Origin: Nocardia tengchongensis
GTDB taxonomy: Bacteria; Actinomycetota; Actinomycetes; Mycobacteriales; Mycobacteriaceae
Direction of reading: 5' to 3'
DNA: 64,000 nucleotides
NCBI RefSeq assembly: GCF_018362975.1
Contig: NZ_CP074371.1
Coordinates: 3,286,001 to 3,350,000, forward strand
Positions 3,132 to 62,893 of the stretch are shown in pieces (position 1 is the first letter of the stretch; each line of letters begins with the position of its first letter). The position numbers and the translations under genes are program-made. The notes under the pieces were generated by a model. The model did not search any database. It had not been told where the DNA came from and saw nothing but the letters and a program-made list of their open reading frames with translations.

Positions 3132-3178
3132 CGAGATTCGCCCTCGCTCCGGATCATCCGGTGCGGGGGCGAATCTCG
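3132..3178. repeat. Nested inverted repeat in the amidase/Hsp70-like gap
   Basis: The outer arms CGAGATTCGCCC (3132-3143) and GGGCGAATCTCG (3167-3178) match over 12 bp, and an inner stem CCGGA/TCCGG (3149-3161) sits between them. It lies in the gene-free stretch 3076-3453. It could be a second terminator or a structured RNA. The rest of that gap holds no ORF with an SD. Confidence 0.55.
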
Positions 3179-3384
3179 TCGGCCTCGGCGCGAATCGAAC
3201 CGTCCGGCATCATCTGTCGCGTATCCGGAGAATGGGCGACCTCGGGCAAACATTCCGCGATCCGAACATGCGCGGGCTCGTTCACGGCCGCCTGCCTGGA
3301 CAGCAAGGTTGTTGCGGCACACCGGCGCACGACCGGACAACCGCGTGTCCGGTGGTTGGCAAGCATCCGGCGCAGGAGTTGCAT

Positions 3385-3430
3385 TGATCGGGCCGGGTCA
3401 GCGGGCCGGCGCGAGTGCTCGGCCCGATCA
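3385..3430 (+). promoter_or_regulatory. Leader hairpin before the first Hsp70-like gene
   Basis: TGATCGGGCCG (3385-3395) and CGGCCCGATCA (3420-3430) form a perfect 11-bp stem with a 24-base loop, ending 23 bases before the ATG. A hairpin of similar size and position precedes the paralogue at 7901. Confidence 0.5.
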
Positions 3431-3453
3431 GGACTCGTCGATCGAGGTGGATG

Positions 3454-4476
3454 ATGGCGTTCGGTGTGGGTTTGAGTATCGGCACGGTCAACACGGTCTG
3501 CTCCACGGCGGCGGATCGCACCGGAAAGCTTCCCCCCGGCCGTCGAAGTATTCCGCCGGCCACCTGGCGCACCACCCTCACCTTCGACAGTTCGGGCACC
3601 GCGCGGGTCGGCCGGATTCCCCGGCACGGACGCGTCATCACCGACTTCGCGGACCTCACCCAGCGGGGCGCTCCGGTCGCGCGGGTCGGGCACCGGGCGC
3701 TCTCCGCGGCCGATCTGGTGGCGACGGTCGCCTACAGCGTGGTCGCGGAAGTGCTCGGGAAACCGCCGGCGGAGGTGCTCGGCCACGGTGACACCGGCAT
3801 CGCGATCACCCATCCCGCCGGTTACCCGGCCGCGCAGGTGGCCGATCTGCGGACCGCGCTGGACGGGGTGGGTCTCACCGCGGCCACACTGGTGGCCGAG
3901 CCGATCGCCGCCGCGGGCTGGCTGGCCGCCGAACGTGGTCCGCTCACACCGGGATTGGCCCTGGTCTACGACCTAGGTGGAGCCGGGCTGGACATCACGC
4001 TGTTGCGGGTGGGCATGGGTGCGCCGAGCAATCCGATCGTCGGCCTCCCGCTGCATTCGCTCGACTACGGCGGCCGGGCCTTCGGCGACATGGTGGCGCG
4101 CACGCTGCGTCGCACGGCCGGGTCCCAGGTGGTGCCGCGCGGACTCTCGGACGCAGGTTCTGGTGAATTGCGCGGCGAGCACATCCGGCGGTCGCTGTCG
4201 CTGGTCTACAAGTGCCTGCGGATAGCTGACGTCACCATGGCCGATGTGGATCGGATCCTGGTGGTCGGCGGCGCGGCGCGCCCGCCCGAGGTGGCCCAGG
4301 TGCTGGCGAAGGAGCTGGCCCGCCCGGTGGTGGTCTCGGCCGATCCGGAGCGGACCATCGCCGATGGTGCGGCCATCGTGGCCCGGCAGGCGCTGCTGGC
4401 CCAGGAGTCGGCGAGTCACCGGCATCATTCGCTGACCGGGCTGTTCCGGCGTGTCACTCGGGTGGCCGCCCTCTGA
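3454..4476 (+). CDS. Hsp70-type ATPase-domain protein (short paralogue)
   Basis: 340 residues resembling only the nucleotide-binding half of Hsp70. Phosphate-1-like motif GVGLSIGTVNT lies at the N-terminus, a connect-1-like EPIAAAGW near 150, phosphate-2 VYDLGGAGLDIT near 170, and the adenosine motif LVVGGAARPPEV near 270. There is no substrate-binding domain or lid, so a classical chaperone role is unlikely. Start: tandem ATGs at 3451 and 3454; GAGG at 3444-3447 and alignment with the paralogue (MTVGFGMSIGTVNS) favour 3454. No membrane segment. The paralogue at 7901 lies on the other side of the oxygenase/fprB pair, suggesting a duplication around it. Function is not known. Confidence 0.75.
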   Translation: MAFGVGLSIGTVNTVCSTAADRTGKLPPGRRSIPPATWRTTLTFDSSGTARVGRIPRHGRVITDFADLTQRGAPVARVGHRALSAADLVATVAYSVVAEVLGKPPAEVLGHGDTGIAITHPAGYPAAQVADLRTALDGVGLTAATLVAEPIAAAGWLAAERGPLTPGLALVYDLGGAGLDITLLRVGMGAPSNPIVGLPLHSLDYGGRAFGDMVARTLRRTAGSQVVPRGLSDAGSGELRGEHIRRSLSLVYKCLRIADVTMADVDRILVVGGAARPPEVAQVLAKELARPVVVSADPERTIADGAAIVARQALLAQESASHRHHSLTGLFRRVTRVAAL

Positions 4477-39373: not shown

Positions 39374-40084
39374 ATGAGCGAGCGTGTTATCGGCCCCCGC
39401 TCGGGGCTGCAGTGGGTCCCCCTGCGGGATGCCGGATCGACCTGTCCCGCCGCCCGAACCACGGTGGCGGCCTTCCGGTCCTGGGCGGATTCCCATCTGA
39501 CCCAACCCAAGGACGAAATGGGTCGTGACGGGCCGGTCTGTCCGTACGTGCTGCCGTCGATCCGGCGGGATCTGCTGTGGCTGGCGCAGGTGCCGGCCGC
39601 CGACCCGCAGCCCGAGTGGATGCGCGCGATCATCCGCGACGCGCTGGAGCTGTATCCCGGACTGCCCACCGGGAACGGTAGTTCCAGTTCGGTGTTGCGC
39701 GCATTGATCACGATATTCCCGAATATGACTGACTATTCGCTGATCGATGAAATTCACGACGAATTCAAGACCATTTTCGTGAGCCACGGCTTCATGCTCG
39801 GACAGTTCTATCCGGGGTGCGATCAACCGGGTCTGTGGAACAAGGAGTTCAAGCCGCTGGATGCGCCGCTGCCGATGCTGGTGGTGCGCCCCATGATGAC
39901 AACCGATTTCCCGTTCCTGGTCGAGAAGCCGGAGTGGGCGGATGCCTATGTGCGCAAGTTTGCGCCGACGCTGCCCGCGCACGTGCGTTCGGTCATGGTG
40001 GGGCGCTTGACCTCTCGGGCCGCGTCCCGGCTACCCGCCTACCAGGTGCGACCGGCCGGCGAATCCTGCTCGACCGGCAGTTAG
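39374..40084 (+). CDS. Uncharacterised NRPS-linked protein (DUF6875-like)
   Basis: 236 residues, no signal or membrane segment. Conserved-looking stretches are [17 protein letters not shown] and [20 protein letters not shown] followed by [18 protein letters not shown]. They recall proteins labelled DUF6875 found beside peptide-biosynthesis genes (from memory, not certain). Cys and His are few, and no catalytic motif is recognised. GAGGTGA precedes the ATG. It ends 10 bases before the NRPS start with no clear NRPS SD, so NRPS translation is probably coupled to it. Confidence 0.55.
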
Positions 40085-40094
40085 GTATTGCTTG

Positions 40095-43000
40095 ATGGCA
40101 CGCGTTTCGGAGCACACCTTTCCGCTCTCCCCGGCGCAGCTCGGGATGTTCTACGCCCAGCAGCTCGACCCGGGGGTTCCGCTGTCGGAGGCCCAGTACA
40201 TCGAGATGCACGGCCCGCTGGACGTGACCACGTTGCGCCGGGTCGCCGCCCAGGCGGGGCGCGAATTCGGTTCCGGTGTGCTGCGTTTCGTCGAGATCGG
40301 GGATCGGCCGTATCAGGTGGTCGAGGCCGGGGTGGAGCCCGCGGTCGGGTTCCTGGATTTCCGGGACCGGACCGATCCGGTCGCCGCGGCGCTGGCGTGG
40401 ATGCGCGCCGATGTCGCGGAGCCGATCGACATGTTCGGCGCGTCCGCCGGGGTATCCACAGTGATCCGGGTCGGGGAGTCCCATCACCTGTGGTACACCA
40501 GAGCTCACCACCTTCTCATCGATGGATTCGGTTCGGTGACCATGCTGTATCGGGTCGCCGAGCTGTACAACGCCGCGGTGCGCGGGCAACCGGCGCCTCC
40601 CGGCACCGCGGCCTCGTTGCTGGATGTGCACGAGGCGGAGATGGCGTACCGGGAGTCCTCCCGGTACGCCACCGACGAGCACTACTGGCGCGAGGCCACC
40701 GCGGGCATGCCGGACCGCTGCAGCCTGGTCGCGTCCACCGCCCCCGCCTGCGCCCTGGGCCGGGAAGCGCGCGCTCGACTGGGCGACCGCACCGCGGCCC
40801 GGCTGGAAGCGGCCGCGCGCCGCTTCGACACCAGTTCCGCGACCGTGGTGATGGCCGCCGTCGCCCTCTACTACGCCCGCCTGACCGCCACCGAGGACGT
40901 GGTCCTGAGCCTGCCCGTCTCCGGCCGCACCACCGCGTTGCTGCGGCGTTCGGGCGGCATGATCGCCAATGTGGTGCCGCTGCGCGTGCCGGTGCCGCGC
41001 ACGGGACTGGTCGGCGAGGTGCTGGACGCGGTCCGCGTCGCGGCCTCGGGCGCCCTGCGCCACCAGCGTTTCCGCCACGAGGACATGCACGCGAGTCAGG
41101 ACGGCTCGCGTGCGCGGGCGGACGATGTCCGCGTGGACGGCGGGCGCGGAGACACCGGCGGACCCGGCGTCGACGCGAGCGGTCGTCACGAGGACGGGGA
41201 ACGGCGGGCGGAATTCGGGCGGGGGATGACCGGGCCGGTCATCAACATCATGTTGTTCCCGGCCGGGATCGATTTCGAGGGGGTCGAGTCGAGCCTGCAC
41301 GTGGTGACGTCGGGGCCGATCGAGGATCTGTTCGTCAACTTCTATCAGCACGGGGCGGGTGCGCCGATCCATGTCGACTTCGCGGCGAATCCGCGGTTGT
41401 ACGACGAGGATTCGCTGACCCGGCATCATCGCCGGTTCCTGGCGCTGCTGGATTCGCTGCTGTCGGCCGAGCCCCGGACGCCGGTTGCCGAGCTGGATTA
41501 TCTGGTGGCGGACGAGAAGCCGCTGCTGGCGGGCGCGCACGGCGCGGCCGCGCCCGAACCGCGAGTGCTGCCGGAGATTCTGGCCGCCGGTCTGCGCCGG
41601 GCGGGTCCCGACGCGATCGCGGTGATGGCCGGGGAACGGCGGCTGACCTACGGTGAGCTCGACACACTGTCGAATCGGCTGGCGCGCAGGATCTTGCGCG
41701 CGGGCGCCGCCGAGGCCGGCGCGCGTGGCCCGGCGGTCGGCCCGGAATCGACCGTGCTGCTGGCACTTCCACGATCTATCGAGGCCGTGGTCGCGCTGTG
41801 GGCCGTGGCCAAGACCGGTGCGGCGTTCGTCCCGGTCGGCACCGCGTTGCCCGCGGAACGGCTGGCACGGATCGCCACCGAGTCGGGTGCGCAACTCGGG
41901 CTGGGACTCTCGGATTCGAGTGCTGTACAGCCGGATTCGGTGCACTGGATAACCCTCGACGGCCTGCTGCAAGGCGGTTCTGTCGCGGGGCTGCCGGATG
42001 GGCCATTGACCGATGTCGAGGTCCCGGTGCGGGCGCGGGTCGGGAATCCGGCGTATGTGGTGTTCACGTCGGGGTCGACCGGTGTGCCCAAGGGCGTGGT
42101 GGTGACTCATACCGGGTTGGCGGGGCTGGCGGCGGCGATCGTGGCGGCGTATCGGGTCGATCCGGGTTCCCGGGTCCTGCAGTGCCTGAACCCGAGTTTC
42201 GACGCGGCGGTGCTGGAGTGGTTGATGGCGTTCGCCTCCGGTGCCACGCTGGTGGTGGCCGAGCCGGACCCGGTGGTGGGCGCCGAATTGGCCGGGCTGG
42301 TCCGGGATTACGGCATCACGCAGGTGTGTTCCACGCCTGCGGTGTTGTCCACGCTGGAGTCGGATGCGCTCGACGGTGTGCACGCGGTGTCCTCGGGCGG
42401 CGAGCCGACGCCGCCGGATATCGTGGCGCGGTTCGGGATCGGGCGGGATCTGCTGAACTCGTACGGGCCCAGTGAGACCACGGTGGCCGTCACCTACACC
42501 GGCGGCCTGGTCGCGGGCGTCGACTCCGGCCTCGGCGATCCGATCCCGGGCGCGGGGATGTTGGTGCTGGATCGCTGGCTGCGGCCGGTGCCCATCGGTG
42601 TGGCGGGCGAGTTGTACGTGAGTGGTCCGGGGGTGGCGCGCGGATATCTGGGCCGTCCCGGTCCGACCGCCGAACGGTTCCTGCCCGCGCCGGACGGTGC
42701 GGCCGGGGCCCGCATGTATCGCACCGGAGATCTGGTGCGCTGGACCGAGCACGGCGTGATCGAGTACGTGGGTCGCGGCGATTTCCAGGTGAAGTTGCGG
42801 GGCATGCGGGTCGAGCTGGGGGAGATCGACGCCGTCCTGAACACGCATGCCGCGGTGGAGATCGCGGTGACCGTGGCGCGGCCGGGTCCCGGCGGCGGCA
42901 CCGTGCTGGCCGCGTACGTGGTGCCGCACGCGGGTTCCGCGATCACCGAGACCGAGCTGCTGGATCATGCGACGCACCGGCTGCCGCCGTACATGGTGCC

Positions 43001-46000
43001 CGCGACGGTGACGGTGCTGGGCGCGCTGCCGTTGACCGCCAACGGCAAGGTGGATCGCCGGGCCCTGCCGGAACCCGTTGTGGCGCAACCGGTCGAGGCC
43101 GCTGTGGCCGCCTCCGAGACCGAGCGGGTGCTGTGCACCCTGTTCGCCGAGGTCCTGGGCGCCACCGAGGTCGGTCCGGGCACGTCGTTCTTCGCCCTGG
43201 GCGGCGATTCGATCATGGCCATCACCCTGGTCTCGCGGGCCCGCGCGGCGGGGCTGGTCTTCTCCGCCCGCGAGGTCTTCGAACACCGCACTCCCGCAGG
43301 CCTGGCCGCCGTGGTGACTCATCTGGAGGATCGCCACGAGCGTCTACCCGAACTGCCGGGCGGCGGCGTCGGCCACCTGCCGCTCACGCCCGTCGCGACG
43401 TGGCTGCTGAGCCGTCCGGGCTGGCAGCATTTCGCCCAATCGATGGTGGTCCAGGTTCCGGCGGGAGCCGAACTCCCGGTGCTGCTGGATGCCGTTCAAG
43501 CCGTGATCGACCGCCACGACATGTTGCGCGCCGCCCTCGTCGATACCGACGACGGGCTCCGATTGGATGTCGCCCCACCGCATGCCGTGGCTGCCGAGAC
43601 CCTGTTGACCCGCATCGACTGCACTGCGGCGCACGGCCGGGGCAACGGGCACGGGGGAACGCCGGACGCCGAGGCCATTTCCGGAGCGGACATCGAGCAG
43701 GCCCTGTCCGCGGCCGTGGACCGGTTGGATCCGCGGGCGGGTGTGATGCTGGGGCTGACCTGGCTGGACGCCGGCCCGGAACGCTCGGGCCGGTTGGCCG
43801 TCGCCGTCCATCACCTGGCCTGTGACGCGGTGTCCTGGCGAATCCTGCTGCCCGACTTGATGTCGGCCTGGGCGCAGGCCCGCGTGGGCACCCGGCCCGA
43901 GCTGCGCGAGACCGGCACCTCGATGCGAACGTGGTCCTCCGCGCTCGCGGCCCGGGCGGTCGTGGGCGCCGACCCGGCCGCGACCGAAACGCCGTGGCCG
44001 GTCAGCGAACTCGGCTACTGGCGTGCGGTGTTGTCCGGGGGCGCCCCGATCGGACGGCGTGCCCTGAACCCGTCGGTGGACACGCACCGGACCGCCGGAC
44101 GGATCGACCTCGAAGTGCCGGAGGAGGTTTCGGCCACGCTGGTCGCCCGGCTGGCGGGAACCTATCGCTGCGGCGTCGAGGACGCGCTGCTGGCGGCGCT
44201 GACCCTGGCGGTGGCGCGGTGGCGCGCGGGCCGAGGCGAGCCAGACGACGCGGGAACCGTGGTCGCGGTCGAACGTCACGGTCGTGACGAGACGGCGGTG
44301 GCCGGGGCGGATCTGTCGCGGACGGTCGGCTGGTTCACCGCCCAGGTCCCGGTGCGGCTGGGACCGGTTGCCATGGACGGCGATTCGAGCACCGGACCGG
44401 TGGAGCAGGTGTTGAAGGCCGTCAAGGAGCAGCTGCGGGCGGTGCCACGCGGTGGCCTGGGCTACGGGCTGCTGCGCTATCTGAACCCCCGGACCTCGGC
44501 CGATCTGGCCGCGCTGCCGGAGCCGCGGTTCGGATTCAACTACCTCGGACAGATCCCCGATATCGAGGTCGAGGGCGATTGGCTGCCGGTGTCGGTGGTG
44601 GATCGGCTCGGCGGGCACGCCGACCCGGATATGCCGCTGGCGGCGCTGGTTTCGGTGGATGCCGTCACCCTGGAGTCGACGATGGGGCCACGGATCCGCG
44701 CGGTGTGGCAGTACGCCAGCGAGGCGATCGCGGCCGACGACGTGGAAATGCTGTCGCGGGAGTGGCTTTCGGCGCTCGGCGAGATCGCCGAGCTGCTGGT
44801 GTGCCCGGAGGCCGGTGGCCTGACCCCCGCCGATCTGCCGTTGCTGGACGTCTCTCAGTCGCAGATCGACACGTGGGAACGGACTTTCGGCCGACTGACC
44901 GATGTTTGGCCGTTGACGCCGTTGCAGCGTGGGCTGTTGTTCCAGGCCCAACTGGCCGAGGGCGGCGCGGACGGCTATTCGGTCCAGGCGATCATCGACG
45001 TGGAAGCGGACCTCGACCGTGATCGGCTGACGGCCGCCGCCCAGACGCTGGTCGATCGTCACGATGTGCTGCGCGCCGGATTCCTTACCTCCGATACCAG
45101 TGCCGTCCAGGTGATTCCGGCGGAGGCGGCGGTGCCGTGCGAGTACCGCGAGGCGATCGGCGCGTCCACCGCGGAGCTGGACGCCATCGCCGCGGCCGAG
45201 CTGCGCGTCCCCTTCGCGGTGGACCGCCCCCCGCTCATCCGGTTCCTCTGCATCGCGGCCGGGGATCGCCGTTTCCGGCTGGTCATCGCCAACCATCATC
45301 TGATCCTCGACGGCTGGTCGATGCCGCTGCTGTTCGCCGAACTCATCGGCCTCTACGAAACCTCCGGTGACGACACCGGTTTCGCGACCCCGGTCCCGTT
45401 TCGCACTCACCTCGAATGGCTGGCCGCCCGTCCCTCTGAACGGGCTCGCACCGCGTGGACGCACGCCTTGGCGGGTCTCGACGGCCCCACCCTGATCGCG
45501 CCCACCGCCCCGCGCGCCGACGCCGCGACCACGCCCGTCGCCCATGAGGTCCCGCTGCCCGAGGGCCTGCCCGACGCCCTGCGGCGAACTGCCGCGGCCT
45601 GTCAGGTCACGGTCAACACACTGGTCCAGGCCGCCTGGGCGCTGTTGCTGGCCGAGCGGACCGGAGCCACCGACATCGTCTTCGGCGCCACGGTGTCCGG
45701 CCGTCCGCCGGAACTCCCCGGCTCCGACCGCATGGTCGGCATGCTGGTGAACACCGTCCCGGTCCGGATCACCCTGAATCCGGCCGAATCCATCGCGGAT
45801 CTGCTCGCCCGCGTTCAGCGCGAACAGGCCGCCCTGGCCGAACACCAGCACCTGGGCCTGGACGAGATCCACGCCGCCACCGGCCAGGGCCAGCTCTTCG
45901 ACACGGCCACGGTCTTCGAGTCCTACCCGGTGGACGCGGCCACCCTGGCCGCCGCCACCCGCCACGCCGACCTCACCGTCACCGACCTGCGCGCCCAGGA

Positions 46001-49000
46001 CGGCACCCACTACCCCCTCTCGCTGGCCGCTTACGCCCAGGACGGCCTTCGCCTCGAACTCACCCGCTCACCCCGCTATTTCGATGCCGCCCAAGCCGAT
46101 TCGATCGCCGAGTCCCTGTGCCGCCTCCTCGTCGCCCTGACCGGACAGTCGACCCGCCGCACCGCCACCCTCACCGGTGCGACCCCGGACGCCGATTTCG
46201 CGATTCGCCATGGCCGGCCCGCGAGCGCGCCTCGCCTCCTGCCGGACCTGCTGGGTTCCAGTGCGTCCCCGGACGCGGCCGCGATCCGCGATGCCTCCCC
46301 ACTCGCCGCCGGAGTGGACGCCGCCGTGCCCGTGGATGCCGGAAGGGATGCCGCCGCATCCCGTGCCGCAGAGTCCACCGCGGCGGGCACGGGTCGGTAT
46401 GTGGACGCTCGGCTCGGCCGGAATGTCCACGAACTCACCTACGGACAACTGGAGGTCGCGGCGAATCAGTTGGCGCGCCGGCTGATCGCGGCGGGGGCTG
46501 GCCCGGAGCGGACCGTGCTGGTCGCCCTGCCGCGGTCGATCGAGTCCATGGTCGCGGTGTGGGCTGTCGCGAAGACCGGTGCGGCGTTCGTTCCGGTGGA
46601 CATCACCCAGCCCGCCGCGCGGACGAGTGCGATCGCCGCGGAATGTGGCGCGGTACTGGGAGTTACCGGTGCGGTCCGGGAATCGGACCGGGAGGGCGCC
46701 GAGCTGCCCGGCGAGGTGGAGTGGCTGCGGATCGGCGATGCGCGGTTCGCCGCCGAGTGCGCCGCGCTGTCCGGTGCGGCGGTCACCGATGCGGATCGCA
46801 CCGCGCCCTTGCGTCCCGAGCACGCCGCCTATGTCGTGTTCACCTCGGGTTCCACGGGCACGCCGAAAGGTGTCGTGGTCTCGCATGTCGGGCTGGCCGA
46901 CATGGTGGCGGCCACGATGGTGCGCGGCGGGATCGATGCCGGTGCGCGTGTCCTGCATTGCGTGAACCCGGCTTTCGACGCCGCGATGCTGGTGTGGATG
47001 TCCGCGTTCGCGGCCGGGGCGACGCTGGTCGTCGCGCCGCCGGAGGCGAGCGCCGGCGCCGAACTGGCCGCGGCGATCCGCGCGGGCGCCGCCACCCACC
47101 TGGTCTGCACACCGGGCGTGCTCGGTACGCTCGACGCCGCCGATCTGGACGGGGTCGGAAGCGTCATCGTGGGTGGCGAGGTCTGCCCGCCCGCGCTCGT
47201 CACCCGGTTGGGTGCCGGTCGCGCGCTGGTGAATTCGTATGGTCCGGCCGAAACCACCGTGGCCGCGAGCTTCGGCGACCCGATGACGCCCGAGACGTCG
47301 GCCCTGATGGGCACACCGGTGCCCGGAACGACGTTGCAGGTGCTCGACCGTTGGCTGCGCCCGGTGCCGCTCGGCTCGGTGGGCGAGCTGTATGTGCGTG
47401 GCCCCGGGCTGGCGCGTGGTTACGCGAGCCGCGCCGCGCTGTCCGCGAGCCGGTTCGTCGCCGACCCGTTCGCGGCCGGTCAGCGCATGTACCGCACCGG
47501 CGATCTGATGCGCTGCACCACAAGGGGTTTCGAGTACGCGGGTCGCACCGACTTCCAGGTCAAGATCCGCGGGATCCGCGTAGAGCCGGGTGAGGTCGAT
47601 GCCGTCCTGCTGACGCATCCGCGGGTGGAGGCCGCGGTGACGGTGGCGCGCCGGAATCCGGCCGGGGCGATGACATTGTGCTCGTACGTCACCCTCGATG
47701 CCCCGGTCCCGGTCCCCGACTTGCCGGCGTGGGCGGCGAACCGGCTGCCGCGCTATCTTGTGCCCGCGACGCTGCAGGTTCTCCCGGAGCTGCCTCGCAC
47801 CGTGTCCGGCAAGGTGGATGTGCGTGCCCTCCCGGAACCGTCACTGGTCCAGGTGGAATACGTCGAGCCGACGGGTACGGCGTCGACAGTCGCCGAAACC
47901 TACGCCGAGGTGCTGGGCCTGGATCGGGTCGGCGCTCGCGACGACTTCTTCTCCCTCGGCGGCGATTCCCTCATCGCGACCCGCGTCGCCGCCCGCTTGG
48001 CCGCGCACTTCGACCGGGCGGTCCCGGTCCGTCTGGTGTTCGAAGCCCCGGTTGTCGAGGACTTGGCCCAGCGCCTGGTAGCCGCCGAAACTGGCACTGC
48101 CGCACCCCTGCTGGCCCGCGCTGACCGGGCCGGGCTGGTTCCGCTGTCCCCGGCCCAGCAGCGCATGTGGTTCGTGAACCGCTTCGACCCGGAGTCCCCG
48201 GCCTACAACGTGCCGGTGGCCCTGCGGCTTTCGGGCCACCTCGACCACGCGGCCCTGCACGCGGCCCTGCGTGACGTCCTCGAACGGCACGAAACCCTGC
48301 GGACCGTGTACCCCGACGTCGACGGCGTGGGCAGGCAACGTGTTCTCCCCGCCGCGGAGGTCCCTCTGGACCTCGACCCGATCCCGGTGCCAGCCGATGC
48401 ACTGCCCGCGATGGTCGCGGACACGATCGGCCGGGGTTTCGACGTCACCGCGGCGGTCCCGCTGCGGGTTCGCGTATTCCGGATCGCCGCCGCGTCGCCC
48501 GCTGGTCCGCCGGTCGGGAACGGGGCCGTCGGCGCCGGGCCGATCGATGATCATGTCGTGGTGCTCGTCGCCCATCACATCGCGACGGACGGGTTCTCGA
48601 TGGCCCCGCTGACCCGGGATGTGGCGGCGGCCTACGCGACCCGGGCGTCCGGGGAGGTCCCGGCGTGGGAGCCGCTGCCGGTGCAGTACGCGGATTACAC
48701 CCTGTGGCAACGGGATCGGCTGGGGGAGGAGAGTGATGCGGGGTCGCTCGCGGCCCGGCAGGTGACCTTCTGGTCGGACACGCTGGCAGGGGTGACCGAT
48801 CACCTGGATTTGCCCGCGGATCGTCCGCGCCCGGCCCGGGCTTCGCATCGGGCGGCCGAATGCTCGGCGCGCGTGGACCGCACGGTTTCCGCCGCGATCG
48901 AGCGGTGTGCCCGGGAACATCGGGCGACCCCGTTCATGGTGGTGCACGCGGCGCTGGCGGTGCTGCTGTCCCGGCTGAGCGGGACCGGCGATGTGGTCGT

Positions 49001-52000
49001 CGGTACCCCGGTCGCGGGTCGTGGCGTGCGCGAACTCGATGATCTGGTCGGCATGTTCGTGAACACGCTGGTACTGCGCACCGACATCCGGCCCGGGGAG
49101 GGTTTCGGAGCCCTGCTGGATCGGGTGCGTTCCACCGATCTCGCGGCGTTCGAACACCCGGACGTGCCGTTCGAGCGGCTGGTGGAGGTGCTGTCCCCGG
49201 CCCGGTCCGAGGCCCGGCACCCGCTGGTCCAGGTGATGCTGGTGTTCCAGAATCTGCCCATGCCGGAACTGCGGCTCCCCGCGTTGACCGTGGCCCCGCT
49301 CGAATTGCCGCAGACCAACAGCCGATTCGACCTCAGCGTGACCGTCGTCGGCGACGAGGACGGCCTGGATCTGCGCTGCTGCTACGCGACCGACTTGTTC
49401 GACGCCGCGACCATGACCGACTTTACCGACCGGTTGGTGCGGGTATTGGCCGAGGTCACCACCGAATCCGTTCGCCCGGTCGGCGATCTGGACCTGCTCA
49501 CCGATGCTGAACGCCAGAGTCTGGGCGGCGGCGTCGAACCCGCCACCGCCGCGCGCACGCTGCACGACCTCATGGCCGCCGCGGTGGCCGCGAACCCCGA
49601 CGGGATCGCCGTGGTCTGCGGTGACCGGAGCCTGACCTACCGCGAGCTCGATGCCCGCGCCGACCGCATCGCCCGGCGACTCGCTGCCGCCGGAGCCGGT
49701 CCGGAAAGCCTGGTGGCCGTCGGTATCCCGCGCTCGATCGAGTCGGTGCTGGCGGTCTGGGCGGTCGCCCGGACCGGTGCGGCCTTCGTGCCCGTGGATC
49801 CGACGTACCCGCCAGAACGCATCGCGCGCATCGTCGACGTCTCCGGTGTCTGCCTCGGTTTGACGGTCACGCAACAGCGCCACCGGCTGCCGGGCACCGT
49901 GCAGTGGTGGTGCCTGGACGAGTCCGACACCGATACCGATGCACCCGGATTGCGTGAAATCCTCAGGCACACAGCTTACCCCGCGTACGTCATCTTCACC
50001 TCGGGATCGACAGGCGCCCCCAAGGGTGTGGTGGTGTCCCACGCGGGTCTGGCGAACCTCGCTGCCGCACAGCGGGAACGGGACGAGATCACCCCGGATT
50101 CCCGCGTCCTGCATGTCGCTTCACCGAGTTTCGACGCTTCGGTGGTGGAACTGCTGATGGCGGTGGGCGCGGCCGCGACCCTGGTCGTCGCGCCGCCCGA
50201 TGTCTTCGGCGGCCCCGAACTCGGCGAACTGCTGTCCCGCGAACGGGTCTCGCACATCGCCCTCACCCCGTCGGCCCTGGCCACCGTGGACCCCGCCGGC
50301 CTGGATGACCTACGCCTGATCGTCACCGGCGGCGAGCCCTGCCCGCCGGAACTGGTCACCGCGTGGGCAGCCGAGGGCCGCAGCCACTTCAACGATTACG
50401 GCCCGACCGAGGCCACCGTGTGGGCCGCCGGCGGCGCGGTCCGCCCCGGTGCGCCGATCACCATCGGCGAACCCGCGCCGGGTGTCCGCGCCCTGGTCCT
50501 CGACGAGCGGCTGCGCCCGGTTCCCGATGGTGTCGTCGGCGAGCTCTACTTGGCCGGAATCTGCCTGGCCCGTGGCTATTTCGGCCGCTCCGACCTGACC
50601 GCCGCCCGGTTCGTGGCCGACCCGCACGGTGCACCCGGCGACCGCATGTACCGCACCGGCGACCTGGTGCGCCGTCGCACCGGAAGCCTGGAGTACCTGG
50701 GCCGCACCGACACCCAGGTCAAACTGCGCGGCCTGCGCATCGAACTCGGCGACGTCGAGGCGGCGCTGACCGCCGAATCGTCGGTGGCGCGGGCGGTCGC
50801 GGTCGTGCGCGACGACGGCCGCGGCGGCCTGCTGGCGGCCTACGTGGTCGCCGCACCCGGAGCTGAGCCGGTGTCGGCCGACCTGAAGAAGGCTGCCGCG
50901 CAACGACTCCCTTCCTACATGGTGCCGTCGGTGGTCATGGTGTTGCCGGACCTGCCGCGCACCGCCAACGGCAAGCTGGATCTCGACGCACTGCCCGCCG
51001 CGCAGCAGGCGGCCCGCGCTCTCCGGGCGCCCGAAGGGCCCGTGGAGACCGCGGTGGCGGCGGCCTTCGCCGAGGTGCTCGGCGTCGAGCGGGTGTGGCG
51101 CGACGACGATTTCTTCGCTCTGGGCGGCAATTCGCTGATCGCCACCCGGGTCGTGGCCCGGGTGGGCGCCGCACTGGACGCCGCCGTGCCGGTGCGCGCG
51201 CTCTTCGACGCCCCGACTGTCGCCGAGTTGGCCGCGCTCGTAGCGGCGGGCGCCGCGTCCGACCGCCCACGTCCGGGACCGCGCCCGCGCCCGGCGCGGA
51301 CTCCGCTCTCGGCGGCACAGCAGCGCATGTGGTTCCTCAACCGCTACGACCCGGGCTCACCGCTCTACAACATTCCCGGCGCCTTCGAAATCGACGGTGC
51401 GCTCGATGTCTCGGCGCTCCGCGCCGCCATCGACGATGTCGTGGCCCGGCACGAGACGCTGCGCACGATCTATCCTGCCGGGCCCGACGGCCTGCCGGAC
51501 CAGCGGATCCTGCCGCCGACGCCGGGTTCCACGCCGATCACCGAACTCGATGTCGCCGCGGACGATATCCGCGCCGCGCTGCTCACCCAGTTGTCGCGGG
51601 GCTTCGACATCACCCGCGAAACCCCGTTGCGCGTCTGCGTACTCCGTGTCGAGCCCGAGCGCACCGTTCTGGCGCTGGCGGTCCACCACATCGCGGCCGA
51701 CGGCTGGTCGATGGCTCCGTTGGCACGAGATGTCGTGTACGCGTTCGCCGCTCGCACCGCGGGGGTCGCACCCGAATGGACGCCGCTGCCGCTGCAGTAC
51801 GCCGACTATGCCCTGTGGCAGCACGAATTGCTGGGCGCGGAGCGCGATCCCGACAGCCTGGCGAGCCGTCAGCTGGAGTTCTGGCGCGCCACCCTGGCCG
51901 GTCTGCCCGAGGTCCACGCCCTGCCCACCGACCGCCCCCGCCCGAGCCTGCCGTCCGGCTCCGGCGATCGCATCGAATTCACCATTCCCGCAACCGTTCA

Positions 52001-53723
52001 CGACCGTGTGCAGCTGCTGTCCCGAGCCCACGGAGCGACCCCGTTCATAGTGGTGCACGCCGCCCTCGCGGTGCTGCTGGCGCGGGTGACCGGGCACCCG
52101 GACGTCGCCCTCGGCTCGGTGGTCGCGGGCCGCGGCGACGGCGAATTCGACGACCTCGTAGGCATGTTCGTCAATACCGTGGTGTTGCGCTCGCAGGTCG
52201 ATCCCACCGCCGGATTCGCCGCCACCGTCGATGCGGTCCGCCGGGCCGACCTGGCCGTCTACGGCAATCTGGACCTGCCGTTCGAACGACTGGTGGAGGC
52301 GCTGGCCCCGGTCCGCTCCACCGCCCACCACCCCCTGTTCCAGGTGCTGCTGGCCTTCCAGAACGTGCAGACCGAGCGAACGGCGTTGCCGGGCTTGGCG
52401 GTCCGCCCGCTGGACGCGCCCGCACCCGGTTCCAAGTTCGACCTCGAATGGATGCTGGCCGAACAGTTCGGCGCCGCGGGGGAGCCCGCGGGAATGACCG
52501 CCTCCCTCACCTTCGCCACCGACCTGTTCGACCGGTCCACCGCCGCGGCCCTGGCGGACGGCTTCCTCGCGATCCTGGACGCGATGACGGCCGATCCCCT
52601 GGCAGCGGTCGGCGCCATCGAGGTGGCCGGGGCCGGACTGCCGACGCTCACGGTGAATCCCTGCGACGAGCCGAGCCATGCGTCGCCGGCTCCGATCCGT
52701 CGCCCCTATCGCACCGCGCGGACCGAGGCGGAACGCATTCTCGTCGCCGCCTACGAAGCCGTGCTGGAGTCGCCGCGAGTCGGCGTGGACGACAACTTCT
52801 TCGATATCGGCGGCAACTCCATGGGCGCGGTCCGCGTCGTCACCCAGGTGCGGGAGGCGACCGGCATTCCGATGCGGCTGCAGTGGATGTTCCTCGATCC
52901 CACCCCTGCCGTGCTGGCGCGACGACTCGGCGAAGCCGCCGCGCAACCGGGCGTGGAGCAGTCGATGCGGGTGCTGCTGCCCATGCGCCCGCAGGGCGAG
53001 GGCCCCGCCCTGTTCTGTGTGCATCCCGCCATCGGATTGGCCTGGTGCTACGGCGGATTGGTCCGCCACATCGATGGGGCGCACCCGATCTACGGCATCC
53101 AGTCCCCGGGCGTGACCGACGGTGGCACGGCCGACCGCACCGTGCGCGACCTGGCCGTGCGCTATGCCGAGGAGATCCGCCACGTTCAGCCCGAGGGCCC
53201 CTACCATCTGCTCGGCTACTCGGCGGGCGGTCCGCTGGCGCACGCTACGGCCGTCGAACTGCGCCGCCGGGGCGCGGAGGTGCCAGCGCTGATCATGCTC
53301 GACTCCCGCGCCGATGTCGCGGTAGCGGACGACACCGCTATTCCACCGTTGTCCCTGCTGCTGGCTGAATTCGGCGGCATCGACGTCCCGCCCGAACTCG
53401 ACCAACTCACCGCCGACCGGGCGGCCGAACTGCTGGAGTCGGCCGGAATCAGTTTCACCGCAACCGAACTGGAGAACGTCTACGGGGACATGTGTCATCT
53501 GCTGCGCCAGATCACCGCCCACGAGCACGAGGTCTTCGACGGCGACCTGCTGTTCGTCGCGGCCGCCGGCAACCCGGACCCCACCCCGAACGTCAGCACC
53601 TGGCGGCCCTACATCACGGGCCGGATCGACCACCGCCCCGTGGAATTCGGCCACAACCGGCTCACCACCCCGGAGGCGTGGGAGGCGATCGGCCCTATGG
53701 TCGCGGCGTATCTGAGCCGCTGA
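40095..53723 (+). CDS. Four-module non-ribosomal peptide synthetase, C-A-T-E-C-A-T-C-A-T-C-T-TE
   Basis: 4,542 residues. C1 (1-475, HHLLIDG at 138) resembles the EntF/DhbF starter-type C domains, with a ~48-residue Gly/Asp/Arg insertion near 332-379. A1 490-990; T1 Ser1039 (GGDSI); E domain 1090-1575 ([10 protein letters not shown] at 1239, VGWFT, FNYLGQ), so residue 1 should be D. C2 1600-2050 (HHLILDGWS). A2 2050-2580, with an Ala/Asp-rich insertion near 2054-2112; T2 Ser2625. C3 2680-3130 (HHIATDGFS), A3 3150-3635, T3 Ser3680. C4 3735-4180 (HHIAADGWS) is followed directly by T4 Ser4242 (GGNSM), then a TE with Ser4376 (GYSAGG), Asp4403 and His4520. Module 4 has no A domain. All three A domains keep Asp235 and the A10 Lys, so they take alpha-amino acids. 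No MbtH-like gene is in the window. ATG at 40095 is used (a TTG lies just before). Product unknown: probably an N-acylated tri- or tetrapeptide. Confidence 0.93.
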
Positions 53724-53795: not shown

Positions 53796-55238
53796 GTGTC
53801 GATGAACGAGCAGGTGTCGGCGCGTAAGAAGGGGCTGCTGCACGCGGTCGCGGTGGGGGTGGGCGCGGTCGGCGCGGGCGAGCTGCTCGCCGCGGCGCGG
53901 GGCGGGTCCATGCTCGACGGGATCGGGCGGCTGGCCGCGGATTACGCGCCCGTGCAGGTGGTCGAGACGATGGTGGCGCAGGCCGGGGAACACGACAAGG
54001 AGATGACCCGGTTCGGCGTCGCGCTGTGGGGTGTGGGCGCGGCCGTCGGCACGGCGCTGCTCCCGCCGCGGCTGCGCACGCCCGCGACCGCCGTGTTCGG
54101 GGCCGCGACGGCGGCCGCCGCCCTGCGCAGCGCCGACCGTTCGGTGCCGGGTGCGCTCGGTGCGGTGGCGGCCGCGGCCGTGCTGCGGGCGGGACTGCGC
54201 AAGCCCACCGGACACGGATTGCTGTGGGCGGCAGCGGGAACCGGAATGTTCGCGGCCGCCGAAACCCTGGTACGCCGCGCGGATCAGTCGCACCGGGAGC
54301 GGGCGCGCAAGGTCGGGCCGATGGGCGCGCACGTCCCGGTCCCCGAGGACGGCATCGGCGGCGAACCGGGCCTCACGTCATTGATCACTCCCGCGAGCAA
54401 ATTCTATGTGGCGGACGTGAATTCGCGGCCGCCCCGCGTCGACCCCGCCGGCTGGCGGCTGTCCATCGGTGGCCGCGTCGCTCACAATCTACGGTTGTCG
54501 CTGGCCGATCTGGCCGAGCAGGCGGTGGAATTCGACGCCGTCATGGTGTGCGTGCACAACACCGTGGGCTCCGGCCGCTGCGCCAACGCCCGCTGGCTCG
54601 GCGTGCCGCTGACCGCCCTGCTCGAACACGCCGTCCCCGAGACCGGTGCGACCAGGCTGGTCACCCGGGCTGTCGACGGCTACACCATCTCGCTGCCGCT
54701 GGAACCGCTGCGCACCGGCGAATGGCCCGGCTACCTGGTCATCGGCATGAACGGCGAACCGCTGCCGCCCGAACACGGCTTCCCCGCACGGGTTTTCGTG
54801 CCCGGCATCTACGGCCAGTACTCCGGCGCGAAATGGGTCGGCGAACTCGAGCTCACCGACGACAGCCACGTCGACTACTGGTGGAAACGCGGCTGGCCCG
54901 CCGAACCGCTGTGGGTGCGGCCGCAAGCCCGCATCGACGTGGCCTCCGGCTCCGGCTCCGGCAAGTTCACGGTGGCGGGCGTGGCCTGGGCCCCGCCGCA
55001 CGGGATCTCGGGAGTGGAGATCCGCATCGGCGAAACTGACTGGCTCCCCGTCGAACTCGGCTCTGAACTGGCCCCCGCCGCCTGGCGGCGCTGGCGCACC
55101 ATCGTCGACGTGCCGCCGGGCACCCACACCATTCAGGCCCGCGCCATCAGCCGCTCCGGCGAAGTCCAGGACGCCGAGGAACGCCCGCCGTTCCCGATCG
55201 GCCCGGGCGGTTTGCACAGCGTCACCGTCACCGCCTGA
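53796..55238 (+). CDS. Membrane-anchored molybdopterin oxidoreductase (sulfite-oxidase fold)
   Basis: 480 residues. About 160 N-terminal residues hold four to five hydrophobic segments. Then comes an oxidoreductase molybdopterin-binding domain (WRLSIGGRV, CVHNTVGSGRCANARWLGVPL with the likely Mo-ligand Cys, GYTISLPLE, GYLVIGMNGEPLPPEHGFPARVFVPG) and a C-terminal Mo-co dimerisation domain (ISGVEIRIGETDWLPVEL). Substrate unknown. GTG 53796 with GGAAGG at 53781-53786. It follows the NRPS by 72 bases and may or may not share its transcript. Confidence 0.85.
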   Translation: MSMNEQVSARKKGLLHAVAVGVGAVGAGELLAAARGGSMLDGIGRLAADYAPVQVVETMVAQAGEHDKEMTRFGVALWGVGAAVGTALLPPRLRTPATAVFGAATAAAALRSADRSVPGALGAVAAAAVLRAGLRKPTGHGLLWAAAGTGMFAAAETLVRRADQSHRERARKVGPMGAHVPVPEDGIGGEPGLTSLITPASKFYVADVNSRPPRVDPAGWRLSIGGRVAHNLRLSLADLAEQAVEFDAVMVCVHNTVGSGRCANARWLGVPLTALLEHAVPETGATRLVTRAVDGYTISLPLEPLRTGEWPGYLVIGMNGEPLPPEHGFPARVFVPGIYGQYSGAKWVGELELTDDSHVDYWWKRGWPAEPLWVRPQARIDVASGSGSGKFTVAGVAWAPPHGISGVEIRIGETDWLPVELGSELAPAAWRRWRTIVDVPPGTHTIQARAISRSGEVQDAEERPPFPIGPGGLHSVTVTA

Positions 55239-55324
55239 TCGTCGCCTCGCCCGTGACATCCGTCATGGGCGACCGGTGACGGACGGGGGAGGCGCGGCGG
55301 GCCCGCGTGCGTGACGGTGGACGC

Positions 55325-56524
55325 ATGAACGTTCCCGTGACACCGATCGCCGACCGGCGCCCGCGGCTGTGGGCTCGGGTAGCGTCCGGCGGTGTGGACG
55401 CGGAGGAAGCGGGTATTCGGCGGCGGCGACGGTTCGGGACGCTGCTCGCGGCTGTATGGGCGGTGTACCTGTTCGACCCGCTGCGGCAGGGCTGGCAGCT
55501 CGAGAATCCGGTGGCCCGCGCGTACACGATCGCGGTGATCGTCGCGTTCGGCGTCGTCTATGTCGCGTCGTATTGGCTGCTGGTGCGCGGCCCGTCCGAC
55601 CAGGGCTGGCCGCCGCGTCCGCCCTGGCTGGTCGTGGCCGCATCGCTGGCCGTGCAGGCGGCGCTGATCGCGGCCGCGGCGGTCACCCTGCACTCGCAGA
55701 TGCTCGGGTTGGGCGTCTACATGGCCTCCTACATCGCGTTCACATTGCCGGTGCGGCGGGCGGTCCCGCTCGAACTGGCGTTGCTGATCGGGTTCGCGGT
55801 GCTGCCGCAGCTGCTCACCGGGCAGCCGCCCGCGTACTCGCTGATGCAGTCGATCGTGTTGGCGGCCTTCGCGGTCGGCGGGATCCGGGTGATCCTGCAA
55901 CGCAATCACGAACTGCACATCGCCCGGCAGCAGCTCGCCGAACTGGCCGTGGCGGAGGAAAGGCTGCGGGTCGGGCGCGACGTGCACGACATCCTCGGCC
56001 ACTCGCTTACCGTCATCACCGTGAAAACCGAACTGGCGCAACGGCTCATCGACGTCGCTCCGGAGCGTGCGAAGACGGAGATGGCGGATGTGGAGCAGCT
56101 GGCGCGGGAGGCGCTGGCCGGGGTGCGCTCGACCGTCGGTGGGCTGCGGGCGGTTTCGCTCGCGGGCGAGCTGACCAATTCCCGCACCGCGCTGAACGCC
56201 GCCGAGATCGAGGGCGTGCTACCGGATCCCGGCGACCTGCCGTCGCGGCACAGCGTCGTGTTCGGCTGGGTGCTGCGCGAGGCCGTCACCAATGTGGTGC
56301 GGCACAGCGGCGCGGCGCACTGCTGGGTGCGGGTGACCCCGAACAGCATCGAGATCGCTGATGACGGTGTGGGCCCGCGCGACTCGGCCCGCACCGGATC
56401 CGGCCTGTCCGGACTACGCGAGCGGGTCCGCGCCACCGGCGGCGAACTCGCCCTCGGCGCGCGCCCGGAGGGCGGATTCCGGGTGCTGGCAAGCTTTCCG
56501 GAGACGATCGAGGAGTCGGAATGA
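55325..56524 (+). CDS. Sensor histidine kinase, HisKA_3 (NarL/DesK type)
   Basis: 399 residues. About six membrane helices between residues 35 and 195, then a HisKA_3 dimerisation helix with phospho-acceptor His221 (RVGRDVHDILGHSLTVI) and an HATPase_c domain (VLREAVTNVVRHSGA, IADDGVG, GSGLSGLRERV). Signal unknown. ATG 55325 is preferred; a GTG at 55307 is possible. Overlaps the response regulator by four bases (ATGA). Pattern is close to DesK-like kinases that sense membrane state. Confidence 0.9.
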   Translation: MNVPVTPIADRRPRLWARVASGGVDAEEAGIRRRRRFGTLLAAVWAVYLFDPLRQGWQLENPVARAYTIAVIVAFGVVYVASYWLLVRGPSDQGWPPRPPWLVVAASLAVQAALIAAAAVTLHSQMLGLGVYMASYIAFTLPVRRAVPLELALLIGFAVLPQLLTGQPPAYSLMQSIVLAAFAVGGIRVILQRNHELHIARQQLAELAVAEERLRVGRDVHDILGHSLTVITVKTELAQRLIDVAPERAKTEMADVEQLAREALAGVRSTVGGLRAVSLAGELTNSRTALNAAEIEGVLPDPGDLPSRHSVVFGWVLREAVTNVVRHSGAAHCWVRVTPNSIEIADDGVGPRDSARTGSGLSGLRERVRATGGELALGARPEGGFRVLASFPETIEESE

Positions 56525-57126
56525 TCAAACTGCTGCTCGCCGACGACCAGGCCCTGGTGCGTGGCGCTCTGGCGGCCCTGCTGAGCTTGGAACCCGACCT
56601 GGACGTGGTCGCCGAGGTCGGCCGCGGTGACGAGGTGCTGGCCGCCGTCGAGCGCACCACCCCCGACGTGGCCCTGCTGGACGTGGAAATGCCCGGCCTG
56701 GACGGCATCTCGGCCGCCGCCCAGCTGCACGCCGCCCACCCCGGCGTCCGCATCCTCATGGTCACCACCTTCGGCCGCCCCGGCTACCTGCGCCGCGCCA
56801 TCGACGCGGGCGCCTCCGGCTTCGTCGTCAAGGACACCCCCGCCCGGGAACTGGCCGACGCCGTCCGCCGTGTCCACATGGGCCTGCGCGTCGTCGATCC
56901 GGCCCTGGCCACCGAAACCCTCACCGCCGGAACCTCACCCCTCACCGCCCGCGAACGCGAAGTCCTCGCCGCGGCCGCCGACGGCGCGACCGCGGGCGCC
57001 ATCGCCAAGCTGCTGCACCTGTCCGAGGGTACGGTCCGCAACCATCTGTCCTCCGCCATCGGCAAAACGGGTACTCGCACGCGGGCCGAAGCGGTCCGGG
57101 CCGCCGAGCGCCTGGGCTGGCTCTAG
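56521..57126 (+). CDS. NarL/LuxR-type response regulator
   Basis: 201 residues. Receiver domain with acidic pair (LADDQ), phospho-acceptor Asp54 (ALLDVEMPG), Thr in MVTTFG and Lys in VVKDTP. C-terminal LuxR helix-turn-helix (SPLTAREREVLAAAADGATAG, LHLSEGTVRNHLSSAIGKTG). Partner of the kinase just upstream. The next gene on this strand is the 31-codon peptide gene, a possible target. Confidence 0.93.
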   Translation: MIKLLLADDQALVRGALAALLSLEPDLDVVAEVGRGDEVLAAVERTTPDVALLDVEMPGLDGISAAAQLHAAHPGVRILMVTTFGRPGYLRRAIDAGASGFVVKDTPARELADAVRRVHMGLRVVDPALATETLTAGTSPLTAREREVLAAAADGATAGAIAKLLHLSEGTVRNHLSSAIGKTGTRTRAEAVRAAERLGWL

Positions 57127-62158: not shown

Positions 62159-62188
62159 TTCCGGATGGGTCCGGCGGCAGGGGGCGTG

Positions 62189-62893
62189 ATGACACGCGAG
62201 GTGGACAGCACAGTCGACCTTGATCGATATCCGCTCGACCGGCGGTCCGTGACGCGGTTGCACGAGGTGATCGAGCGCGCGCAGGCGGACTTCCTGGTCA
62301 GCGGTGTCACCGTGCTGCCCGAATTCCTGCGGCCCGCGGCGGTCACCGAGATGGCCGCGGATGTGCTCTCCGACGGGCTCGGGGACGCCATGCGATTCGA
62401 GTACACCGTGGCCTGCGACCGGATCCCCGACTCCTCCCCGCTGAAAGCGCTCTATCGGTGGGAACCGTTGCGGGAGTTCGTCTCTCAGCTGGTGGGGGAG
62501 CAGGCGTACCGGTCCGCCGACGAATTGGGCGCGATGACGGTGCAGATCCACGAGAACGGGGACGTGCAGGACTGGCATTACGACATGTCCGACTACACGG
62601 TGATGCTGCACATCGTCGCGCCCCAGCGGGGCGGGGCGCTCGAATACATTCCGTTGCCCGGGGCGTTCATCGAGCGCGGGGGCGGGCTGCCGATGCGGCA
62701 TCGGCACATGGTGAAGATGCTGCCGACCGTGCCGGGGACGCTGGTGCTGCACGCCGGGCGGCGGTCACGGCATCGGGTGACGCCGGTGCAGGGCGAGATT
62801 CCGCGGGTGAGCGTGCACATGGCGTTCAACGCACGGCCGGGGCAGCGGTTGAACGCGCATGTGCGGCGGCATCTGTTCGGGCGCGAGGACTGA
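62189..62893 (+). CDS. 2OG-Fe(II) oxygenase-like protein
   Basis: 234 residues. The metal triad is visible as His130-x-Asp132 in DWHYDMSDY and a distal His195 in RRSRHRVTPV, with Arg residues nearby for 2-oxoglutarate and a cupin-like strand pattern (VMLHIVAPQRGGALEYIPL). Substrate unknown. ATG 62189 has AGGGGG 5 bases upstream. It lies 30 bases after dgt on the same strand. Confidence 0.75.
   Translation: MTREVDSTVDLDRYPLDRRSVTRLHEVIERAQADFLVSGVTVLPEFLRPAAVTEMAADVLSDGLGDAMRFEYTVACDRIPDSSPLKALYRWEPLREFVSQLVGEQAYRSADELGAMTVQIHENGDVQDWHYDMSDYTVMLHIVAPQRGGALEYIPLPGAFIERGGGLPMRHRHMVKMLPTVPGTLVLHAGRRSRHRVTPVQGEIPRVSVHMAFNARPGQRLNAHVRRHLFGRED

Follow-up and report, generated by a model that had tools for sequence, protein, structure and literature searches.

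The locus

The window analysed here is a stretch of 64,000 nucleotides from Nocardia tengchongensis, the genome of which consists of 8.0 Mb in one contig. An NRPS open reading frame covers positions 40092-53723 of the forward strand. Its likely start is the ATG at 40095, and its product comprises about 4542 residues. Five Condensation-type stretches, three AMP-binding stretches, four PP-binding stretches and one Thioesterase stretch were recognised in this frame (Table 1). A gene for a DUF6875 protein lies directly upstream, its stop 10 bases before the ATG of the NRPS.

Table 1. Features of the NRPS locus, in positions of the window
Feature	Position	Strand	Evidence
DUF6875 (PF21780) protein, 236 aa, heme-enzyme candidate	39374..40084	+	Pfam 194.5 bits, cut-off 24.5
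NRPS gene	40095..53723	+	C1-A1-T1-E-C2-A2-T2-C3-A3-T3-C4-T4-TE
E (epimerisation), module 1	43389..44771, limits approximate	+	HHLACDA at 43809; position; own clade in tree
A3, last adenylation domain	49578..50990	+	PF00501 best stretch 3163-3497; P-loop, A5, A7, A8 present
T3 carrier	50994..51206, limits approximate	+	FALGGNS at 51114
C4 condensation domain	51273..52622	+	PF00668 268 bits; HHIAADG at 51684
C4-T4 linker, about 31 residues, expected A position	52623..52715	+	no adenylation match
T4 carrier	52716..52930, limits approximate	+	FDIGGNS at 52800
TE thioesterase	52959..53720	+	PF00975 89 bits; GYSAGG at 53214

The sequence-only reading had described the terminal module as a C-T-TE unit without an adenylation domain, and the domain stretches and motifs bear this out: A1, A2 and A3 are the only PF00501 matches in the window. 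The catalytic motifs of C4, T4 and TE are all intact, which agrees with the earlier statement on HHxxxDG and GGNS. The estimate of ~35 residues between C4 and T4 was also fair; the linker length given in Table 1 depends on the end of the PF00668 match of C4 (~52622) and on a start of T4 (~52716) that was estimated from the alignment. By sequence, the closest solved chains of C4 are 5u89 and the PCP-C didomain 7kvw.

Pfam was run on 20 genes of the window, and the names inferred from it make both flanks housekeeping regions (upstream hrcA, dnaJ, phoH, era, uppS, glyS; downstream dgt). NCBIfam offered no name for five window proteins. On the 3' side of the NRPS (53796-57126) a molybdopterin oxidoreductase, a histidine kinase and a response regulator are found, which have no evident link to a peptide. 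Among the fetched relatives, 10 show the oxidoreductase, 6 the kinase and 4 the regulator, with several of these loci stopping short of the genes in question.

Distribution and conservation of the A-less end

The stretch from the end of C4 through the linker and T4 to TE was used as query against 118 Nocardia genomes, our own included. Since NRPSs are common, some match was obtained in all 118. A contiguous C-T-TE end is present in 22 of them, again with our own genome. The 21 relatives (L010-L025, L028-L032) are 51-75% identical across the matched part; the loci of all of them were fetched and the order of their motifs was read. The alignment holds the window and 20 relatives, as L058 (G112) fell to a length filter despite an identical motif order. 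The DLF motif of C and the motif of T are 81-94 residues apart in the 21 C-T-TE rows that were measured, the window being one of them.

Could the A-less end simply be what such a query finds everywhere? The lower-scoring Nocardia ends sampled among the matches listed speak against this: 16 out of 16 have an A domain before T-TE, each with a P-loop and an A10 motif spaced as usual, although the A8 pattern missed five. The A-less end is therefore exceptional in Nocardia. Two genomes, G006 and G069, have the same kind of TE at an A-T-TE end (loci L055 and L056, see below).

Of 301 genomes scanned within the family, 11 gave a match at E 1e-85: five Nocardia with C-T-TE, one of which (G244) is absent from the first scan, and six of another genus. 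The latter matches begin near T, and the two that were read (L152, L153) are both A-T-TE. At the level of the class, 4 of 394 genomes matched at E 1e-70, among them G683 from a different family, where C-linker-T-TE stands at a contig end. Among the matches listed for named records (78 loci), at least 5 cover almost the entire unit without a break; they belong to Nocardia sp. SYP-A9097, N. yamanashiensis, N. inohanensis, N. amikacinitolerans and N. uniformis. Two oddities came up on the way. P0231, a stand-alone protein of 812 residues, consists of C-T-TE alone and shows, between its C and its T, an A10-like remnant suggestive of an excised A domain. In L042:1695-15534 (G028) the NRPS extends over three open reading frames with one break between the A3 and T3 motifs, which may be a split, a frameshift or a sequencing error.

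An assembly collapse at the C4-T4 junction, which had been named as a possible refutation, is excluded because independent assemblies, those of the 21 relatives, share the same C-T-TE. Nor does any of the 22 C-T-TE genomes have an A domain at the junction; L055, L056 and more distant relatives end in A-T-TE. The A-less terminus is thus confirmed as real.

The catalytic motifs of C4, T4 and TE are conserved across the 22 C-T-TE genomes, those of C4 and T4 at two separate genomic sites. The serine of T4 is retained in all C-T-TE relatives aligned, within either GGNS or GGTS depending on the relative. Identity to the window was measured domain by domain across 8 relatives, with 59-82% for C4, 50-76% for T4 and 51-80% for TE, compared to 58-82% for C3, 63-82% for A3 and 65-79% for T3. 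The range of C4 matches that of C3, and the two thus evolve alike. Among the four carriers, T4 shows the lowest conservation in 8 of the 8 relatives (tied with T2 in L041), which speaks mildly against an ordinary role.

Natural variants around the junction

Not all lines of this type have the same architecture, something that the sequence-only reading was in no position to see. At L055:4805-15544 and L056:4766-15733 a three-module line occupies the glyS-DUF6875 site. It is devoid of E and of T3-C4, and A3 sits directly on a T4-type carrier; A3 must therefore load this carrier, if the line works. At L054:9691-15486 (G115) the DUF6875 gene precedes a line C1-A1-T3-C4-T4-TE, one A domain with two carriers, in a single assembly in which a collapse is possible. 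The short line apparently arose by an internal deletion that joined A1 to T3.

The history of these variants was approached by trees. FastTree trees of T4-TE and of DUF6875 place L055/L056 outside one C-T-TE clade. A careful T4-TE tree settled neither alternative: the AU test gave p 0.33 for all C-T-TE together and 0.195 for L055/L056 joined to the glyS-site group. Trees of C1, C2 and C3-A3 group L055/L056 with the C-T-TE lines of the glyS site, with supports of 98/96 (C1), 98/96 (C2) and 99.9 (C3-A3), and a single C-T-TE clade is rejected with p 0.0265 (C1), 0.0315 (C2) and 0.00037 (C3-A3); these p values are optimistic, as the groups tested were defined with earlier trees already in view. 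If L055/L056 indeed belong inside the glyS-site group, the C-T-TE line is the older one and the shorter line reflects a loss of E and T3-C4. Gain by transfer may have occurred instead. In a small tree C4 formed a pair with the last C domain of a C-A-T-TE line (0.967); the pairing was lost in a sample of 182 C domains.

Who loads T4?

In the sequence-only reading three ways were left open: loading in trans, loading by A3, or a free nucleophile. Judged from sequence, the A3 option is best supported, the other two less so.

Our proposal, to which we grant a nearly even chance, is that one A domain serves two carriers in cis. The terminus would be a working one, in keeping with the intact motifs of C4, T4 and TE and with a C4 no less conserved than C3. 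A3 would activate one amino acid and load its neighbour T3; it would then reach past C4 and load T4 also. C4 would link the peptide carried by T3 with the amino acid of T4, TE would presumably release the chain, and the residue would be added twice. The product might be (acyl-)D-aa1-aa2-aa3-aa3. The DUF6875 protein could oxidise one of the building blocks, possibly tryptophan. The code of A3, DAVAVGDVW in the window, is near-constant and reads DA[LVA][AG][IV]GD[VI]W across the relatives examined; the codes were read against GrsA as yardstick, with a pattern that missed some A domains, e.g., one each in L044, L055 and L056. Taken together, this code, the variants L055/L056 and L054 and the missing partner (see below) favour cis loading by an adjacent A domain, as in HMWP2. 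The natural variants, and they alone, suggest that T4 is aminoacylated by the A domain of another module. Against sharing by A3, the identity between T3 and T4 is only about 40%, and recognition of both carriers by one A domain would for this reason not be obvious; the low conservation of T4 among the carriers counts against it as well. Also, as A1 is the only A domain of L054, A3 cannot be the loader in every line.

L054 fits a rule of the nearest upstream A domain and a loader acting in trans equally well, having retained C4-T4-TE after the loss of A3. That T4 is served from elsewhere, by an A domain in a different NRPS or by a free A or A-T protein with or without a shuttle, we consider unlikely, despite clear precedents: the C-T-TE end of SyrE takes its last residue from SyrB1 (PMC8949500), and T2 of AmbE is loaded by AmbB, according to the accessible part of PMC4357302. 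Candidates would not be scarce. TIGR01733 has 126 matches in the own genome, 64 of them above the cut-off and three of these being A1-A3; many other A domains could therefore act in trans. By eye, the majority of the 64 fall within NRPS regions that also contain condensation domains, and one is in a 675-residue frame beside NRPS pieces. However, the nearest PF00501 matches outside the window are about 120 kb off on either side. The two MbtH genes of the genome are each >1 Mb distant. The flanks of 23 loci, mostly 1-5 kb per side (~139 kb and 1478 open reading frames of ≥50 residues in total), revealed no A, T or MbtH motif by coarse patterns. The partner enzyme that the sequence-only reading had implied thus did not turn up: neither a free A or A-T protein nor an MbtH protein was found as a conserved partner in the own genome (PF00501, TIGR01733, MbtH), in the window or in the flanks of the 23 loci.

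Two proteins nevertheless deserve mention. A free NRPS-like A protein of 539 residues (L069:6792-8408, below cut-off) has a degenerate P-loop, which speaks against loading in trans. In the 21 C-T-TE relatives it is found as a separate frame in 2 and within larger frames in 6, and 13 gave no match at 1e-100; its inclusion in larger frames makes it look like a remnant. A Pls-like protein of 1323 residues is a stand-alone A-T above the TIGR01733 cut-off. It was set aside as T4 loader, since its layout resembles poly-lysine synthetase, an enzyme common in Nocardia according to PMC4035055.

In a further reading T4 would never be charged with a monomer. C4 might use a soluble amine or hydroxyl acceptor, the free nucleophile proposed earlier, or C4-T4-TE might join chains to a dimer or ring on the TE. 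The closest solved chains of the TE by sequence are 7crn and EntF (2roq, 3tej), and the TE of EntF oligomerises. Yet a free acceptor would leave T4 idle, while its serine is kept in the rows aligned and the domain retains the identity given above; we regard this reading, with an acceptor or with chain joining, as improbable. We are similarly sceptical about C4-T4 being skipped or vestigial, with the peptide passing from T3 to TE and a tripeptide as product. L055/L056, which lost or never had T3-C4, indicate that a three-residue line can suffice, and T4 is the least conserved carrier. C4, however, does not show any excess divergence, and the motifs of C4 and T4 are preserved at two separate sites in the genomes.

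To return to cis loading: if one A domain indeed loads two carriers across an ordinary C domain, the product has more residues than a count of A domains would suggest. With A3-T3-C4-T4-TE, A3-T4-TE and A1-T3-C4-T4-TE, nature provides a matched set of proteins on which the choice of carriers by an A domain can be studied. A more far-reaching idea, which we consider rather doubtful, is that T3-C4-T4 is a movable cassette for residue duplication, placed after A3 where aa3 would be added twice, after A1 in L054, and removed in L055/L056, where the residue would be added a single time. If true, nature would change the number of repeats without altering any A domain.

Relation to known systems

A-less modules are already recognised in SyrE, AmbE, CmnI and HMWP1/2, and the window NRPS is a further member, having an intact C and T with no A domain in between. 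The last step is thus unusual, as the sequence-only reading had held, but it has characterised precedents.

The closest parallel in layout is HMWP2 of yersiniabactin synthesis, where in A(E)-PCP1-Cy2-PCP2 one A domain loads both carriers in cis (PMC9547227, as far as the available text goes). As in the window NRPS, one A domain is followed by a carrier, a condensation-type domain and then another carrier that has no A domain for itself. It differs in its heterocyclisation domains and in ending at PCP2, whereas in the window C4 is ordinary and TE directly follows T4. SyrE, the syringomycin synthetase, has the same terminal order without A, C9-T9-TE (PMC8949500), but works with SyrB1 (A-T), SyrB2 and SyrC; no dedicated free A-T gene was found beside the NRPS in the window or in the fetched flanks of the relatives. 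CmnI and VioI, of capreomycin and viomycin synthesis, are A-less modules loaded by the A domain of another module, CmnA-A1 in the case of CmnI (PMC12400406, available part). Unlike the end studied here, they are separate proteins, represent an internal module 3 and are loaded in trans. AmbE of AMB synthesis has one A domain, two carriers, C and TE, its second carrier being loaded by another A domain (PMC4357302, accessible text). This loader, AmbB, is a separate protein, and the C domain of AmbE is atypical. Less usual in the present case are the conservation within a genus, the constant partner, a candidate heme enzyme, and the natural variants around one junction. Our literature search yielded no description of the locus; an NRPS row in figures or supplements of PMC4035055 and PMC7413640 could be this gene.

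The DUF6875 partner

In all 18 C-T-TE relatives with a fetched 5' end, and also in L055/L056, the gene immediately preceding the NRPS encodes a DUF6875 protein; the sequence-only reading had made no mention of this paired gene. For the family, also called cytochrome P422, heme binding and tryptophan oxidation have been reported (PMC13307353, in the part available, citing a preprint). By analogy, the window protein is possibly a heme enzyme that oxidises tryptophan. Cys56 and Cys149, invariant in 22 DUF6875 sequences, are candidates for the heme ligand. This constant partner ties the pathway to a newly reported family of heme enzymes.

The predicted fold may resemble the sandwich fold of AglA, a heme N-hydroxylase of the YqcI/YcgG type with a Cys-ligated heme, yet the Pfam family differs: the DUF6875 protein matches PF21780 alone and not the YqcI/YcgG profile. 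The match of the model to AglA is weak (Foldseek E only 0.018, 12% identity). Foldseek found nothing at E 0.001 or better, and a sequence search of the PDB gave chance-level matches only.

A second DUF6875 gene (G000:C1:7919770-7920282; L066, L072) is located about 165 bases downstream of another NRPS, which has an A-T-TE end. The same order, a DUF6875 gene after an A-T-TE NRPS, is seen at L062 in another genome. Finally, a protein of the HalD family (PF23169, 48 bits) is encoded at 62165-62893, after dgt and 8.4 kb downstream of the NRPS. It could be a tailoring enzyme or be unrelated; it carries a HYD motif, which we take to suggest a hydroxylase, not a halogenase.
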